Shown: positions 563-10,575 of the stretch, in pieces
How positions within the stretch are numbered: the stretch's first letter is position 1
How the letters are laid out: every line of letters starts with the position of its first letter
From: a virus
Virus record (IMG/VR): IMGVR_UViG_3300042444_000709
Coordinates: 1-21,184 of that record
Length of the DNA stretch: 21,184 nucleotides
Strand: one strand, 5' to 3'
Notes under the pieces: generated by a model
Told to the model about the DNA's origin: nothing
Database searches by the model: none
What the model saw: the letters and a program-made list of their open reading frames with translations, nothing else
Translations under genes and position numbers: made by a program

Positions 563-892
563 TTAGGCGCGCCCTTCCGCTTTTGAAATTGCCGACCAAA
601 GCGCGCGCAACGCCAGAGAGGCAGAAGAACCAACCCCAAGGGCAAGCAGTTCTTCATTCGCTAAACGCGCGGCATTGAGAAGCTCTGGAGCGGCTGCAAT
701 CAAGTGAGCGTTTGCTTTGGCGCTTTCGTGTTGCGTTGGAATGCTACAAATCATGCCTGTCGCAACGGCCTCGGAGTAGACGCCGCAGGGTTTGGGGTCA
801 TTTTCACCGCATCTGGCAATCGCCCAAGGGCCATGAGTGTGCTGCGCAGCCGTGGTGTCCGCTGCGCCCGTTGTGGTGTGTTGTGTTGTCAT
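563..892 (-). CDS. Small phage protein of the 'HGPW...AHLIAAAPELL' type
   Basis: About 109 aa from ATG 892. An in-frame ATG at 916 would add eight residues, but it lies inside a TTGGCAT box of the 909-970 repeat array, so 892 is preferred. The pattern HGPWAIARCGEN near the N-terminus, followed by SAKANAHLIAAAPELLNAARLANEELL, is a layout I recall from many short phage proteins of unknown function, often found in early or accessory regions. No catalytic motif is visible. It is the first gene of the leftward trio that follows the regulator gene, with the phased box array directly upstream. Confidence 0.65.
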   Translation of the reverse strand: MTTQHTTTGAADTTAAQHTHGPWAIARCGENDPKPCGVYSEAVATGMICSIPTQHESAKANAHLIAAAPELLNAARLANEELLALGVGSSASLALRALWSAISKAEGRA

Positions 893-908
893 GTGGTGTG
901 TAGATGCT

Positions 909-970
909 GTTGGCATCTGTCAGCACTATATGGCATCTGTTGGCATCTGCAAGCAATATTTGCATCTGGT
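909..970. repeat. Phased TTGGCATCTG box array (left)
   Basis: The 10-mer TGGCATCTGT/C occurs at 911-920, 931-940 and 941-950, and a degenerate TGCATCTGGT lies at 961. All four begin at multiples of 10 bp from each other (20, 10, 20), that is, on the same face of the helix. The array lies between the regulator's stop (997) and the start of the next leftward gene (892 or 916). It matches the boxes upstream of the regulator, so it is a likely operator for the 892 gene and its followers. Confidence 0.6.
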
Positions 971-996
971 GTAAAATAGTTGCTTCCCTCTGTAGA

Positions 997-1263
997 TCAG
1001 CGGGTTACTTGCAGCGCTTTTTCCATCCTGTCGGCCATGCCGCCGACATTGCGCAGGATCATCGCCCGGAATTGCTCGGTGAGCGGACCTTGAAAAGCGT
1101 CCTCCAAGTCCATGTAAAACTCGAGCGCCACGGCGACATACTTGGCGGCCTTGTGGTCTGCGGCCGCAGCCCGCCGGTGCATGCGGTCATGCAAGTCGGT
1201 GCTAAGGTTGGCGAAGACGCCCTTGCGGGTGTCTTCTTTGTATCTTGGCTTCTTGGTGCTCAT
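997..1263 (-). CDS. Ribbon-helix-helix-like DNA-binding regulator
   Basis: 88 aa from ATG 1263; a longer reading to 1302 would run into the box array. A basic N-terminus (MSTKKPRYKEDTRKG) leads to a short strand VFANLS (16-21), a helix TDLHDRMHRRAAAADH and a second helix KAAKYVAVALEFYMDLEDA (39-55). This order is expected of Arc/CopG-type proteins, which bind DNA as dimers through a beta-ribbon and often bind tandem short repeats co-operatively. The C-terminal third (61-88) is helical. The gene is flanked on both sides by 10-bp-phased TTGGCAT boxes, which suggests autoregulation. The family call rests on secondary-structure pattern only; another small regulator fold is possible. Confidence 0.55.
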   Translation of the reverse strand: MSTKKPRYKEDTRKGVFANLSTDLHDRMHRRAAAADHKAAKYVAVALEFYMDLEDAFQGPLTEQFRAMILRNVGGMADRMEKALQVTR

Positions 1264-1274
1264 AGGTGCTGCTG

Positions 1275-1460
1275 TTTGCCAATAGACTCCAACGGATGCC
1301 AACGGATGTCAAATAGGGTCTTCGCCCCATGCCAAGGAATGCCAAAAATAATTCTTGCAGTGTTGGCAGTCTTTGGCATTATTTGGCTTTCCGATGCACG
1401 CCCACTTCGTGAATCAAGTCGCCCAAAAGGGTTTACCCACGTTGCCAAGGAATGCCAAGG
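1275..1460. promoter_or_regulatory. Divergent control region with phased GCCAA/TTGGC boxes
   Basis: The 208 bp between the leftward regulator (start 1263) and the rightward HTH gene (start 1472) hold GCCAA-type boxes at 1278, 1288 (TCCAA), 1298, 1308 (GTCAA), 1331, 1341, 1444 and 1454. Reverse TTGGC boxes lie at 1363, 1373 and 1383. Within each cluster the step is exactly 10 bp, and the extended form approximates GGAATGCCAA. The inverted cluster in the middle separates the two outward clusters. TTGGCA/TTGACA-like boxes could double as -35 elements (a TTGACA is at 1312-1307 on the minus strand), so binding would compete with polymerase. No confident -10 was found. Confidence 0.65.
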
Positions 1461-1471
1461 ACTGCCTTTCT

Positions 1472-1663
1472 ATGACAAACACCACACCACAACTGCTCAC
1501 GATCCGCGATGCGGCGAACGCCCTCCGGGTGAGCTATGCACAGACCCGCCTCTGGGTCTTAGAAGGCCGGCTGCCGTCGATTGCCCTTGGGCAACGCACA
1601 CGCCGGATTCCCGCACAGCAACTCGCGAAGTTCATCGCGAACAACACGACGGGAGGAAACTAA
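1472..1663 (+). CDS. Excisionase-like helix-turn-helix protein
   Basis: 63 aa from ATG 1472. The sequence LLTIRDAANALRVSYAQTRLWVLEGRLPSIAL followed by GQRTRRIPAQQLAKFI is the classic MerR/excisionase-type small HTH (helix_turn_helix_17) layout: recognition helix, then a short wing (G.RTRRI) and a final helix. Such proteins act as phage excisionases or early transcription switches. The start has no clear Shine-Dalgarno and is the first rightward gene beyond the control region, suggesting a short or leaderless mRNA. With no integrase in view, a regulatory role in the divergent switch is more likely than excision. Confidence 0.75.
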   Translation: MTNTTPQLLTIRDAANALRVSYAQTRLWVLEGRLPSIALGQRTRRIPAQQLAKFIANNTTGGN

Positions 1664-2509: not shown

Positions 2510-2880
2510 TTAAGCGTCATCCTTGCTGGGCAATTTGGAAGGGCATGAAGCAACGCTGCGACAATGCAAATCGCAAAGACTTCGCCTATTACGGCGGCCG
2601 AGGAATTGGCTACGACCCCAAGTGGTCAACGCTCGCCGGGTTCCTTCAAGACATGGGCGAGCGCCCATCTCTCAGCCACACGCTGGATCGCATCGATGTC
2701 AACGCTGGCTACAGCAAGGCGAACTGCCGCTGGGCCACGCGCAAAGAGCAATCACGCAACCAGCGCAACAACATCATCGTAGACGGCCGCCTCCTCGTTG
2801 AGCTGGCCGAAGAACAAAACGTCAGTCTGCGCGCCATGTATTCGCGCCATTACCGCGGAGGAAAACAATGTGGATACTAA
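2506..2880 (+). CDS. HNH-like small phage endonuclease with C-terminal HTH
   Basis: 124 aa from GTG 2506 (GTGA overlap). The pattern HPCWAIWKGMKQRCDN (5-20), YYGGRGI (28-34), an F/W-rich stretch, then TLDRIDVNAGYSKANCRWAT (59-78) is a signature I recall from a widespread phage family annotated as HNH or AP2-type endonucleases; the LDRID and NCRW blocks stand where catalytic and metal-binding residues lie. Residues 94-119 (RLLVELAEEQNVSLRAMYSRHYRGGK) look like an HTH that could guide DNA binding. The 3' end overlaps the methyltransferase start by 11 bases. It may be a free-standing homing nuclease; activity is not certain because a clear HNH histidine pair is not evident. Confidence 0.65.
   Translation: MIKRHPCWAIWKGMKQRCDNANRKDFAYYGGRGIGYDPKWSTLAGFLQDMGERPSLSHTLDRIDVNAGYSKANCRWATRKEQSRNQRNNIIVDGRLLVELAEEQNVSLRAMYSRHYRGGKQCGY
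2857..2872 (+). promoter_or_regulatory. Shared ribosome binding site for two overlapping starts
   Basis: GGAGGAAA at 2857-2864 precedes ATGTG at 2868-2872. The ATG (2868) opens the frame of the embedded repeat protein. The GTG (2870) opens the methyltransferase frame. Spacing is 5 nt to the ATG and 7 nt to the GTG, so a single ribosome site could serve either frame. It also lies inside the end of the HNH-like gene. Confidence 0.55.
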
Positions 2881-4451
2881 CACCATCAATCACGTCAGCC
2901 TTTGCAGCGGCTACGGGGGCATCGACCTCGGCCTCAAGCGAGCAATTGGCGAGCGCCTGCGCACAGTCGCTTTTGTGGAGGTCGAGTGCTTCGCCGCCTG
3001 CAACTTGGCAGCGAAGGCTGAAGCAAAACTCTTGGACAACGCACCTATCTGGAGCGATCTGCGAACCTTCCCTTGGGGAAAGTTTCACGGACTGGTGGAC
3101 ATCCTTTCTGGCGGCTATCCGTGCCAGCCATTCAGCGCCGCCGGCAAACGCCTCGGCGCCGAAGACCCAAGACACCTCTGGCCGCACATATCAGCCGGAA
3201 TTGCTGCAATGCGACCAGGTGCCTGTTTCTTTGAAAACGTCGAGGGACATATCAGCCTTGGGCTTCCCGACGTGCTGCAAGACTTGGCAGGAATGGGTTA
3301 CAGAACGACGTGGGGCATATTCAGCGCGTCTGAAGTTGGCGCGCCTCACCAGAGGAAAAGAGTCTTCATCTTGGCCCACGATCAGCGTCAACGAGTCGAA
3401 GAACTCGGTTGGCAAATCGCAGGAGCATCGCAATTCGATTCCGCTTGGAACGATGGCGGCGATGCAGTCTTGGCCGACACCGAACGCTCAAGTCTCGCAA
3501 GATGGCGAGTCGCCGGAGACATGGCTCAAGCGCAAGGAAGCGATGAAGGCCAAGGGCTACAACGGCAACGGATGCGGGACGCCGCTGACCATTGCGGTGC
3601 AACTCCATGGCCAAGCCGCCCCGGCGAGCAGCAGTTCGCTTGGGAGCCGCCAAGAGTTGTGGCCGACACCATCAGCGGACGGGGACTCTCGACCGGGAGC
3701 GAATGCCGATCCAGTGAAATGGCAGGAGATAGCCGATGCGAAGAAAGCGCAAGGCATCAACAAGCAGCTTTTCTTAACAACCAAGGTTGCGATGGAAGAG
3801 GCGAAGAAACAGGAACTCTGGTTGACACCAAAAGCCAACGAGTCGGACAGCGATCCGAACTTTGCGGCGAGGAATGCGGATCGCGGGGCGCATTGCCATG
3901 GGACGTTGAGCAGTCAGGCGAAGTCGGAGGAGTTTCCAACGCCTCGCACAACGGATTGGAAATCGACAGCGAATGCGCCATCCAACCCGCAGAGGGTCGA
4001 GGACGGAACGGCAACGCTGGGAGAGTTTGTTCACGCGAAGCAATGGGCAACGCCGAAAGCCAGCGACCCGCAGCACAGCGGGCCGAACATGAGGGACTCA
4101 GCGGGCAACTATGCGCTGCCAGCGCAGGTGACGAAATCATGGCTGACGCCCAAAGTTCCGAGCGGCGGATCACAAGCGGAGCGGACAACAGCAGGCGGCG
4201 GATTGCGGAAGTTGGAAGACCAGACGCAGACACCGACCGGCAAGCTCAACAGCCAATGGGTGACCCAGTTGATGGGACTGAGCTTGGGCTGGGTCTCGCC
4301 GAGTTGTCCGGCCTCAGTCATCAAGAACTGGCCGAGATTCGTGAGTGGATGGTCCGCTCTGACAATCGCACCGATGAGCTGCGACTCCTCGGCAATGGAG
4401 TTGTGCCTGCCACCGCAGAGCGAGCTTTCCGAGTTCTCGTTGGCGAGCTGA
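2868..4451 (+). CDS. Candidate overprinted protein with WPTP repeats, in an alternative frame of the methyltransferase
   Basis: 527 aa open from ATG 2868, two bases before the methyltransferase GTG, spanning nearly the whole gene in another frame. This product is not random: W-P-T-P-like motifs recur at 3372 (WPT), 3471, 3660, 3819 (WLTP), 3933 (FPTP), 4044 (WATP) and 4140 (WLTP). The stretches after the second and third align (W...A.KA.G.N......T..V). It ends with GKLNSQWVTQLMGLSLGWVS. I recall phage proteins with SLKTS, WPTP and LMGxPxGW motifs encoded with C5 methyltransferases, but that is memory, not a search. Translation is unproven; it may equally be a by-product of constraint on the methyltransferase. 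Confidence 0.4.
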   Translation: MWILTPSITSAFAAATGASTSASSEQLASACAQSLLWRSSASPPATWQRRLKQNSWTTHLSGAICEPSLGESFTDWWTSFLAAIRASHSAPPANASAPKTQDTSGRTYQPELLQCDQVPVSLKTSRDISALGFPTCCKTWQEWVTERRGAYSARLKLARLTRGKESSSWPTISVNESKNSVGKSQEHRNSIPLGTMAAMQSWPTPNAQVSQDGESPETWLKRKEAMKAKGYNGNGCGTPLTIAVQLHGQAAPASSSSLGSRQELWPTPSADGDSRPGANADPVKWQEIADAKKAQGINKQLFLTTKVAMEEAKKQELWLTPKANESDSDPNFAARNADRGAHCHGTLSSQAKSEEFPTPRTTDWKSTANAPSNPQRVEDGTATLGEFVHAKQWATPKASDPQHSGPNMRDSAGNYALPAQVTKSWLTPKVPSGGSQAERTTAGGGLRKLEDQTQTPTGKLNSQWVTQLMGLSLGWVSPSCPASVIKNWPRFVSGWSALTIAPMSCDSSAMELCLPPQSELSEFSLAS

Positions 4452-4468
4452 TGGAGCACCAGCCATGA
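2870..4468 (+). CDS. DNA (cytosine-5) methyltransferase
   Basis: Transfers a methyl group from S-adenosylmethionine to cytosine C5, presumably protecting phage DNA from host restriction. From GTG 2870 it is 532 aa. Motif I is SLCSGYGGIDLG (10-21). Motif IV is GGYPCQPFS with catalytic Cys85. Motif VI is FFENVEG with E122. Motif VIII is APHQRKRVF (158-166). Motif X is RLLGNGVVPATAERAF near 505-520. The region between VIII and X (about 170-500), where the target-recognition domain should lie, is long, polar and built around recurring VADT/VDT/SNA/GNA/ADA-type motifs. It is also open in another frame (see 2868-4451). An upstream start at 2798 would overlap the HNH-like gene far more, so GTG 2870 is preferred. 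Confidence 0.93.
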   Translation: MDTNTINHVSLCSGYGGIDLGLKRAIGERLRTVAFVEVECFAACNLAAKAEAKLLDNAPIWSDLRTFPWGKFHGLVDILSGGYPCQPFSAAGKRLGAEDPRHLWPHISAGIAAMRPGACFFENVEGHISLGLPDVLQDLAGMGYRTTWGIFSASEVGAPHQRKRVFILAHDQRQRVEELGWQIAGASQFDSAWNDGGDAVLADTERSSLARWRVAGDMAQAQGSDEGQGLQRQRMRDAADHCGATPWPSRPGEQQFAWEPPRVVADTISGRGLSTGSECRSSEMAGDSRCEESARHQQAAFLNNQGCDGRGEETGTLVDTKSQRVGQRSELCGEECGSRGALPWDVEQSGEVGGVSNASHNGLEIDSECAIQPAEGRGRNGNAGRVCSREAMGNAESQRPAAQRAEHEGLSGQLCAASAGDEIMADAQSSERRITSGADNSRRRIAEVGRPDADTDRQAQQPMGDPVDGTELGLGLAELSGLSHQELAEIREWMVRSDNRTDELRLLGNGVVPATAERAFRVLVGELMEHQP

Positions 4469-8886: not shown

Positions 8887-8890
8887 TTCC

Positions 8891-8920
8891 CATGCCTACA
8901 TTTGCCAACATATGCCTACA
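8891..8920. repeat. Three 10-bp-phased TGCC(A/T)ACA boxes before the helicase gene group
   Basis: Three consecutive 10-mers (catgcctaca, tttgccaaca, tatgcctaca) start at 8891, 8901 and 8911, sharing TGCC(A/T)ACA at exact 10-bp steps. They fill the only real gap (8887-8952) between the zinc-ribbon gene and the gene pair ahead of dnaB. The core TGCCAA and the 10-bp step match the boxes around the regulator at 909-1460, so this is a candidate second operator. Confidence 0.5.
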
Positions 8921-9168: not shown

Positions 9169-9196
9169 TGACGACGACGAAGGGAGATTTTCGTGA
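9095..9196 (+). CDS. Single-span membrane peptide, 33 aa
   Basis: ATG 9095 with GGAGGAAGAAAG upstream. The sequence MSVSELTLLSLLMCALIFIVIVM is almost wholly hydrophobic, and is followed by TDDDDEGRFS. Its stop overlaps the dnaB GTG (GTGA), which is typical of coupled genes here and argues that it is real despite its length. A one-pass peptide of unknown role; it may simply couple translation to dnaB. Confidence 0.5.
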   Translation: MSVSELTLLSLLMCALIFIVIVMTDDDDEGRFS

Positions 9197-10575
9197 AGCG
9201 CACCGTTCCCCAATCACCCGCCGTTGAGCAAGCCGTCCTCGGCAGTCTGCTCGCCGACCCGCGCCTCGTTGACGAAGTCGCCGGTCTTCACGCCGATCTT
9301 TTCTTCACACCCGCGCACCGGCTGGTCTTTGAGACCATCACCGAGATTCGCAGCGAGGGCGGCACGCCGAACCTTATCGCCACCACGCAGCGGATCGACG
9401 CGAAGCACAAGCTGAACTTTGTCGGCGGCGCTGGGGCCATCACCGAGTTTCTTTCGCAGTCTGCCGGCGGTCCCGCGGGCGTTGAATATCACGCGCAAAC
9501 ATTGCGCGACCTCCATGCTCGCCGCCGCATCATTGACTCTGCCGTTGCGATGCAGGCGGCGGCGCAGGACATGGCTACGGATGCTGACAGCGTCCTGCAG
9601 CAGTCCGGCGAAGCGGTCTTGAGCCTTTCGCTGACCACCGCCACCGACTCCATGCGCGCACCGAGCGCCATTGTCCCGGGCCTGCTTGACGAACTGGAAG
9701 CCCTCATGTCTGGCGGCCGGAAACTCGGCTTGCAGACCGGAATCCGCGACTTCGACCAAGTCACCGGCGGTCTCCGCGGAGGACAGCTCACGATTGTCGC
9801 CGGCCGTCCCGCCATGGGCAAAAGCGCGTTGATGTTGAATATGGCGGACAACATGGCCCGCCGCGGTGTGCCGGTCGTTTACTTCAGCCTTGAGATGCCC
9901 GCCAACGAGTTGGCCGCTCGCGTTGTCTTGAGCCGCGCCGAGACTAATACCGAGATCATTCGCAACGGATTCCTCACCGCTTCCATGAAGCACCGGATCA
10001 TGGATGCCGCCACGCAGTTTGCCAGCGAACCGCTCTACGTTGATGACCGCGGCGGCCTCACCCTCTTGGACATCCGCGGCCGCGCCCGCCTAGCCGTCCG
10101 CCGCTGGGGCGTGAAGGCAATCTTCGTAGACTACCTGCAGCTCGTCAGCCATTCCGGCGCCCAGTCCCGCGAAAACGAAGTTGGCTTCGTCAGCCGCGGG
10201 CTAAAGGCCATGTCGATGGAACTCGGCATCCCAGTAGTCGCCGCCGCGCAGGTTAACAGGCAGGCCGAAAACCGCAGCGACAACCGCCCCAAGCTCTCCG
10301 ACCTCCGCGAGTCCGGCAGCATCGAACAGGACGCCGACATCGTGTGTTTGGTTCACCGCCCTTGCTACTACGCTGTGCAAGACCAAGAACCCGACCCGCA
10401 AGATGCCGAATTGATCGTTGCCAAGCACCGCGCTGGCCGCACCGGCACACTCAACCTCACATGGCGCCCCTCGCTCACCCGCTTTGAAGGCACTGCCCCG
10501 GTCGGCCGCACCAGCGACAGCGATGGCTCGGTCTACGCGCCGGCGAAACAACTTTGGGAGGCCATCAATGAATAG
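9193..10575 (+). CDS. dnaB: Replicative DNA helicase, DnaB family
   Basis: 460 aa from GTG 9193, with AGGGAG six bases upstream. The N-terminal DnaB domain (about 5-110, with SPAVEQAVLGSLLADPRLVDEV) is followed by a linker and a RecA-type motor. Motifs are Walker A GRPAMGKS (204-211), FSLEMP (231-236), Walker B IFVDYLQL (310-317), the arginine-finger region NRQAENRSDNRPKLSDLRESGSIEQDAD, and a C-terminal VAKHRAGRTG motif. It forms a hexamer that unwinds DNA at the fork and is loaded by the phage initiator (6379-7218). It overlaps the resolvase-like gene by eight bases. Confidence 0.96.
   Translation: MKRTVPQSPAVEQAVLGSLLADPRLVDEVAGLHADLFFTPAHRLVFETITEIRSEGGTPNLIATTQRIDAKHKLNFVGGAGAITEFLSQSAGGPAGVEYHAQTLRDLHARRRIIDSAVAMQAAAQDMATDADSVLQQSGEAVLSLSLTTATDSMRAPSAIVPGLLDELEALMSGGRKLGLQTGIRDFDQVTGGLRGGQLTIVAGRPAMGKSALMLNMADNMARRGVPVVYFSLEMPANELAARVVLSRAETNTEIIRNGFLTASMKHRIMDAATQFASEPLYVDDRGGLTLLDIRGRARLAVRRWGVKAIFVDYLQLVSHSGAQSRENEVGFVSRGLKAMSMELGIPVVAAAQVNRQAENRSDNRPKLSDLRESGSIEQDADIVCLVHRPCYYAVQDQEPDPQDAELIVAKHRAGRTGTLNLTWRPSLTRFEGTAPVGRTSDSDGSVYAPAKQLWEAINE

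Follow-up and report, generated by a model that had tools for sequence, protein, structure and literature searches.

Gene content and box arrays of the locus

The window analyzed in this study, i.e., the whole stretch of DNA, is a record of 21,184 bases from an uncultured virus (IMGVR_UViG_3300042444_000709). Besides a DnaB helicase and an O-like replication protein, it encodes a terminase and a major head protein. Short boxes had first been noted at 909–1460, around a small regulator gene whose neighbors in the window are a phrog_1273 gene and an HTH_17 gene. Genes, promoter-like hexamers, and box arrays are listed in Table 1.

Table 1. Positions of genes, promoter-like hexamers, and box arrays in the window
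Feature	Position	Strand	Remarks
Leftward gene	563–916	-	phrog_1273, function unknown; placed under array A
Array A	910–949	+	TTGGCATCTG TCAGCACTAT ATGGCATCTG TTGGCATCTG; putative promoter region for the leftward gene that follows the regulator
TTGCAG, -35-like	947–952	-	leftward transcription (putative); first T 36 nt before the ATG at 916; from the alignment of relatives
Regulator gene	997–1263	-	88 codons/88 aa, probably RHH-type; ATG at 1263, stop at 997
Array B	1273–1312	-	TTGACATCCG TTGGCATCCG TTGGAGTCTA TTGGCAAACA; putative regulator promoter region, starts with a conserved TTGACA
Array C	1326–1345	-	TTGGCATTCC TTGGCATGGG; between putative divergent promoter regions; missing from several relatives
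TTGCAG, -35-like	1355–1360	+	putative early promoter, rightward; 39 nt from the first T to the ATG at 1394; conserved in relatives
Array C'	1363–1392	+	TTGGCAGTCT TTGGCATTAT TTGGCTTTCC; fills the spacer and putative -10 region of the rightward promoter
Array D	1439–1478	-	TTGTCATAGA AAGGCAGTCC TTGGCATTCC TTGGCAACGT; just upstream of the HTH gene, overlaps its start
First rightward gene	1472–1663	+	63 aa, HTH_17/excisionase-like; PF12728 E 1.9e-8; PHROGs
Array E	8889–8918	-	TAGGCATATG TTGGCAAATG TAGGCATGGG; lies upstream of both gene 8953 and the DnaB helicase gene
DnaB-like replicative helicase	9193–10575	+	PF03796 E 4e-85; downstream of array E

The first-pass annotation had described TTGGCAT boxes in steps of 10 bp on both sides of the regulator gene, and these positions were borne out. 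The boxes stand in a strict 10-bp register, which supports the description as tandem boxes in helical phase. When up to one mismatch was allowed, same-strand TTGGCAT pairs at exactly 10 bp occurred eight times in the window, compared to a mean of 0.12 and a maximum of 2 in 300 shuffles. Six such pairs were counted in the stretch 881–1480, where 2000 shuffles gave a mean of 0.01 and never more than 1, a clear excess over shuffled sequence. The units near 1288 (TTGGAGTCTA) and 1308 (TTGACATCCG) keep the register but are degenerate. Further weak in-phase units, extra to the original list, were found at 920–929 and, as part of array D, at 1459–1478. Both orientations are present as had been described, but they do not simply alternate, as A reads on the plus strand, B and C both on the minus strand, C' again on the plus, and D on the minus strand.

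A weighted scan delineated six arrays, namely A, B, C, C', and D around the regulator gene and E at a distance of 7.6 kb. Array E was absent from the original list and is the best evidence for a phage-wide operator set. The arrays of the window scored from 22 to 39, while the chance level, taken from three shuffles of all 15 sequences, gave a top score of 23.0 and a next score of 20.6. Array C, with a score of 22.5, is therefore within the chance range on score alone, and its status as a candidate array rests on its conservation in relatives.

In alignments of relatives, conserved hexamers starting with TTG precede the boxes: TTGACA at B, TTGCAG-like at A and C', and TTGATT/TTGCCT-like at E. 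The boxes that follow occupy the stretch expected for the spacer and the -10 element. For A, B, and C' (916–952, 1263–1312, and 1355–1394), the first T of the hexamer lies ~35–49 nt before an ATG, so that the start codon would fall near +1. These distances suggest leaderless or nearly leaderless transcripts. A strict sigma-70 scan of the assigned promoters gave zero matches; the assignments were read from the sequence, and the -10 elements are putative and to be regarded as unproven. Between 1394 and 1471, only a short leader ORF (MHAHFVNQVAQ...) is left, which shares the reading frame of the HTH_17 gene that starts at 1472.

The regulator protein

The family profile of the regulator aligned in register with CopG (KGVFANLSTDLH... 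on KRLTITLSESVL...) and outscored all shuffles (60 of 60 and 40 of 40). L352, a diverged homologue of group IV, passed the Pfam HicB cut-off (PF05534, 23.4 vs. 21 bits) with a match that spans the strand and both helices, and the group V regulators almost reached this cut-off. A FitA-like RHH model was touched by 4 of 24 group I members, with a best E of 0.06. The window protein itself gave zero Pfam matches. Matches to CopC, a copper protein, in NCBIfam were discarded as spurious.

The protein is predicted to consist of a strand at residues ~14–20, helices at ~22–34 and ~37–56, and an extra C-terminal helix at ~63–87, with the helix limits taken from low-confidence AlphaFold2 models. Its strand-helix-helix sequence pattern can be aligned to a known member of the RHH class, CopG. 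The proposal that the regulator is an RHH-type protein is thus supported by the CopG alignment and by the homologue above the HicB cut-off, and an assignment to the MetJ/Arc/CopG type is likely. AlphaFold2 monomer models built with family alignments were poor (pLDDT 58 and 64.5) and showed helices only and no strand. As these models are of low confidence, the fold assignment was not based on them. The poor monomers may reflect intertwined dimers together with shallow alignments. A Foldseek search returned zero matches; this outcome, the poor models, and the lack of a Pfam match for the window protein weigh against the role proposed below.

Relatives and conservation of the arrays

The regulator was found in 34 IMG/VR loci and gave zero matches among the INPHARED phages. 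Regulator and terminase searches of 84,980 prokaryote genomes also gave zero matches, and thus neither a prophage copy nor a host. More distant phages were reached with the terminase as query, and in some of them the regulator profile still matches. In 18 related contigs of 20–48 kb, the pattern KGGCA-N5-KGGCA matched 51 times and the backward pattern 0 times.

Arrays A, B, C', and E were found at the same places in relatives, even beside different neighbor genes, and array D was retained where the adjoining gene is swapped. A different HTH gene lies between arrays C' and D in L008 and L012, and exchange between phages seems to have affected the first rightward gene but not the arrays. In all 65 related DnaB loci with enough upstream sequence, array E lies 268–284 nt upstream of DnaB; it occurs there in 28 different versions, every one in the 10-bp step. 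Mean pair identity was 0.84–0.93 for the box cores versus 0.61–0.74 for the 40-nt flanks, a difference seen in all four arrays compared (A, B, C', and E).

The regulator of the window is 99% identical to those of L003 and L006, yet the flank of array A is very different, and the boxes are again in 10-bp step. Comparison with these two loci points to a recombination just past the regulator stop codon (997–1000 of the window and downstream).

The terminase search of INPHARED returned one distant match (34% identity), Phage C75C1 (OQ984151.1); among annotated phage records, a related terminase was found in this one alone, and the record gives no host. Phage C75C1 also encodes DnaB and a DNA methyltransferase. 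Two long overlapping ORFs of 556 and 527 aa lie on the same strand of the window in different frames (2798–4468 and 2868–4451). The 556-aa ORF aligns partly with the annotated DNA methyltransferase region of Phage C75C1, and the 527-aa ORF is probably spurious.

The matches of a DNA-pattern scan of IMG/VR were for the most part unrelated TTGGCACACT-type arrays; a diverged phage, L155, with four arrays was also among them. Unrelated phage contigs (L087, L091, L107, L112, L123, and others) share a recurrent 10-bp array, TTGGCACACT TTGGCACAGT TTGGCATACG ATGACACTGT. In another unrelated contig (L095, 12913–13153), long TTGGCACACC-like arrays of 4 and 13 units at 10 bp were seen.

Box letters and regulator lineage

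Group III regulators carry RRSVHANL in place of the RRSVFANI of group I. Near the regulator and DnaB of group III, phased TGGCA was absent, and phased TGTCC was found upstream and downstream of the regulator as well as upstream of DnaB. In groups IV (KRVTVSL) and V (KKVTVSL), phased boxes of the GGAC/GTCC type stand at the equivalent places. The numbers of distinct phased contexts at the 10-bp step, given as TGGCA-type/TGTCC/YGGAC, were 20/0/0 in group I, 0/14/4 in group III, 0/4/5 in group IV, and 0/10/17 in group V; each of the other steps between 6 and 15 gave at most one. The step specificity was accordingly 20 versus ≤1 for group I, 14 versus 0 for TGTCC in group III, and 17 versus 0 for CGGAC/TGGAC in group V. 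The box centre of group I is TG-S-CA. As TGTCCACA and TGTGGACA are reverse complements, groups III to V share one near-palindromic word, which is used in either direction.

Position 17, a predicted sheet residue that corresponds to Thr6 of CopG by alignment, is Phe in group I, His in group III, and Thr in groups IV and V; the L021 lineage has Tyr at this position, and some of its boxes read TCGGCA. Phe or Tyr at residue 17 thus goes with TGGCA-type boxes and His or Thr with TGTCC/GGACA boxes, an association that would fit a role of sheet residues in DNA specificity but is confounded with phylogeny. A change of boxes that tracks the regulator is what binding of the boxes by an RHH protein would predict. 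It is not proof, as all genes of these lineages diverge together. A tentative extension, which we put somewhat short of an even chance, is that in an entire clade of temperate bacterial phages an RHH protein, and not a CI-type HTH protein, serves as master repressor and assembles along 10-bp direct repeats over several promoters, and that the operator letters (TGGCA vs. TGTCC/GGACA) were rewritten during evolution along with one to three DNA-facing sheet residues. If this is true, the phages would form a natural series from which the RHH recognition code could be read, and different immunity groups would be probable.

Proposed role of the regulator and alternative explanations

A tyrosine integrase/recombinase was present in 10 of 13 contigs, near the regulator where examined, and a search of the contigs for serine recombinases found none. 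None of 14 contigs encodes an HTH_3 or S24 (CI-type) repressor. The regulator gene is divergent from the early operon, and boxes occupy both its putative promoter region and that of the early genes; together with the integrase, this is the layout of an immunity repressor. On the basis of the integrase, the absence of HTH_3/S24, and the divergent placement, the regulator was read as a switch repressor. With a probability of roughly 0.7, the product of 997–1263 is an RHH-type repressor of the lysogeny/early-gene switch of a temperate tailed phage and acts on the 10-bp boxes.

RHH dimers would bind the direct-repeat boxes (core TTGGCAT, near-palindromic at the center) next to one another at intervals of about one helical turn, and this spacing would place them on one face of the DNA. 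We infer that binding would be cooperative and that a filament would form, as the first-pass annotation had suggested. The arrays would cover four promoter regions, i.e., those of the regulator (B), the leftward gene (A), the rightward early genes (C' with C and D), and the replication genes upstream of DnaB (E). Their occupancy would block RNA polymerase, so that the prophage would stay silent and the regulator would limit its own level. The earlier reading as an autoregulated switch gains support on both counts, as array B fills the putative promoter region of the regulator itself and the position of the gene is switch-like.

The regulator might instead be an activator, an antirepressor, or a Cro-like early regulator. 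The search for a prophage copy was negative; still, this alternative appears unlikely, as the boxes fill the stretch from the -35-like element to the start codon, which is the geometry of a repressor, and the HTH_3 and S24 searches of 14 contigs gave no other repressor candidate. Also rather improbable is that the boxes are operators of another protein, either the HTH/excisionase-like product of the gene at 1472 or a host regulator, with the regulator merely adjacent. The HTH_17 protein is likewise DNA-binding and its gene adjoins array D, but some relatives have exchanged the HTH gene located between C' and D for another HTH gene and still retain the arrays. A shared host factor would not account for box letters that vary with the phage lineage while step and places stay constant.

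The location of array E upstream of DnaB and near the O-like replication gene would fit replication iterons or helicase-loading sites, besides or instead of operators. We consider this very unlikely for E and the other arrays, as the same boxes also occur at early genes and in the putative promoter region of the regulator, and E shares the arrangement of TTG-initial hexamer and following boxes with the other arrays. A parC-like partition centromere with an autorepressing ParR/ParG-like protein is highly improbable: ParR is an RHH protein on ~10 bp tandem repeats flanking its promoter (PMC5016525), but the partner NTPase of ParMRC/ParFG systems was not seen nearby (ParA-type ATPase, AAA_31, in 0 of 14 contigs; zero StbA_N matches for StbA/ParM, with a control that was silent too), an integrase is present, and the arrays are distributed among several putative promoter regions that lie as far as 7.6 kb from each other.

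Comparison with known systems

Repression by an RHH protein on the boxes is a mechanism of known kind. New are an unrecognized protein family in bacterial tailed phages, a putative virus-wide set of 10-bp direct-repeat operators, and an apparent natural change of operator vocabulary that tracks the regulator lineage. Phage master repressors known so far are mostly HTH proteins with palindromic operators. Here, a putative virus-wide RHH operator set can be deduced directly from the sequences of dozens of related phages; step and places are shared, but at least two box vocabularies occur. Stacking of RHH dimers at one-turn spacing on direct repeats, and the question which sheet residues set the base preference, thereby become testable on small proteins and short DNAs. 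The escape of group I proteins from Pfam and PHROGs suggests that such immunity systems may have been overlooked.

Mnt and Arc of the P22 immI region are, like the proposed repressor, RHH repressors of a temperate tailed phage. They have palindromic operators and, as a difference from the role proposed here, are accessory to the main P22 repressor C2. CopG of pMV158/pLS1 is an RHH autorepressor and the best sequence match to the regulator family. Its operator is single, short, and palindromic, and it is without the predicted extra C-terminal helix of the regulator. Omega of pSM19035 is an RHH repressor with tandem short repeats at several promoters, which resembles the system proposed here, but its heptads step by 7 bp, compared to 10 bp in the window. 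Membership in the Omega or Arc types was rejected, as the profile comparison gave no alignment over the RHH domain; for Arc, the regulator family showed no similarity. The comparison with Omega made in the first-pass annotation is thus a loose one.

F55 of the archaeal virus SSV1 is a small RHH regulator of lysogeny that is expressed during lysogeny. It represses its own promoter as well as early promoters, to the tandem repeats of which it binds (PMC5569661); the regulator described here would act likewise. RHH dimers are known to bind multiple operator sites cooperatively (PMC5569661). F55 differs in having one or two sites of two repeats per promoter with an 11-base consensus (ATAGATAGAGT), whereas the phage of the window is a bacterial tailed phage whose arrays comprise 2 to 4 or more units of 10 bp. 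In ParR-parC, one dimer binds per ~10 bp repeat and a helical array is formed (PMC5016525); RHH dimers, iterons of ~10 bp, and repeats flanking the promoter are features that our system would share, except that a ParA partner was not found in 14 contigs and the arrays extend over several promoter regions. The first-pass annotation had called a 10-bp step with a 7-bp core, in such number, unusual for a phage switch, but ParR with its 10-bp repeats and F55 with its 11-base consensus show that a spacing of ~10 bp is not unknown among RHH proteins. ParR and SSV1 F55 are therefore closer to the present system than Omega.
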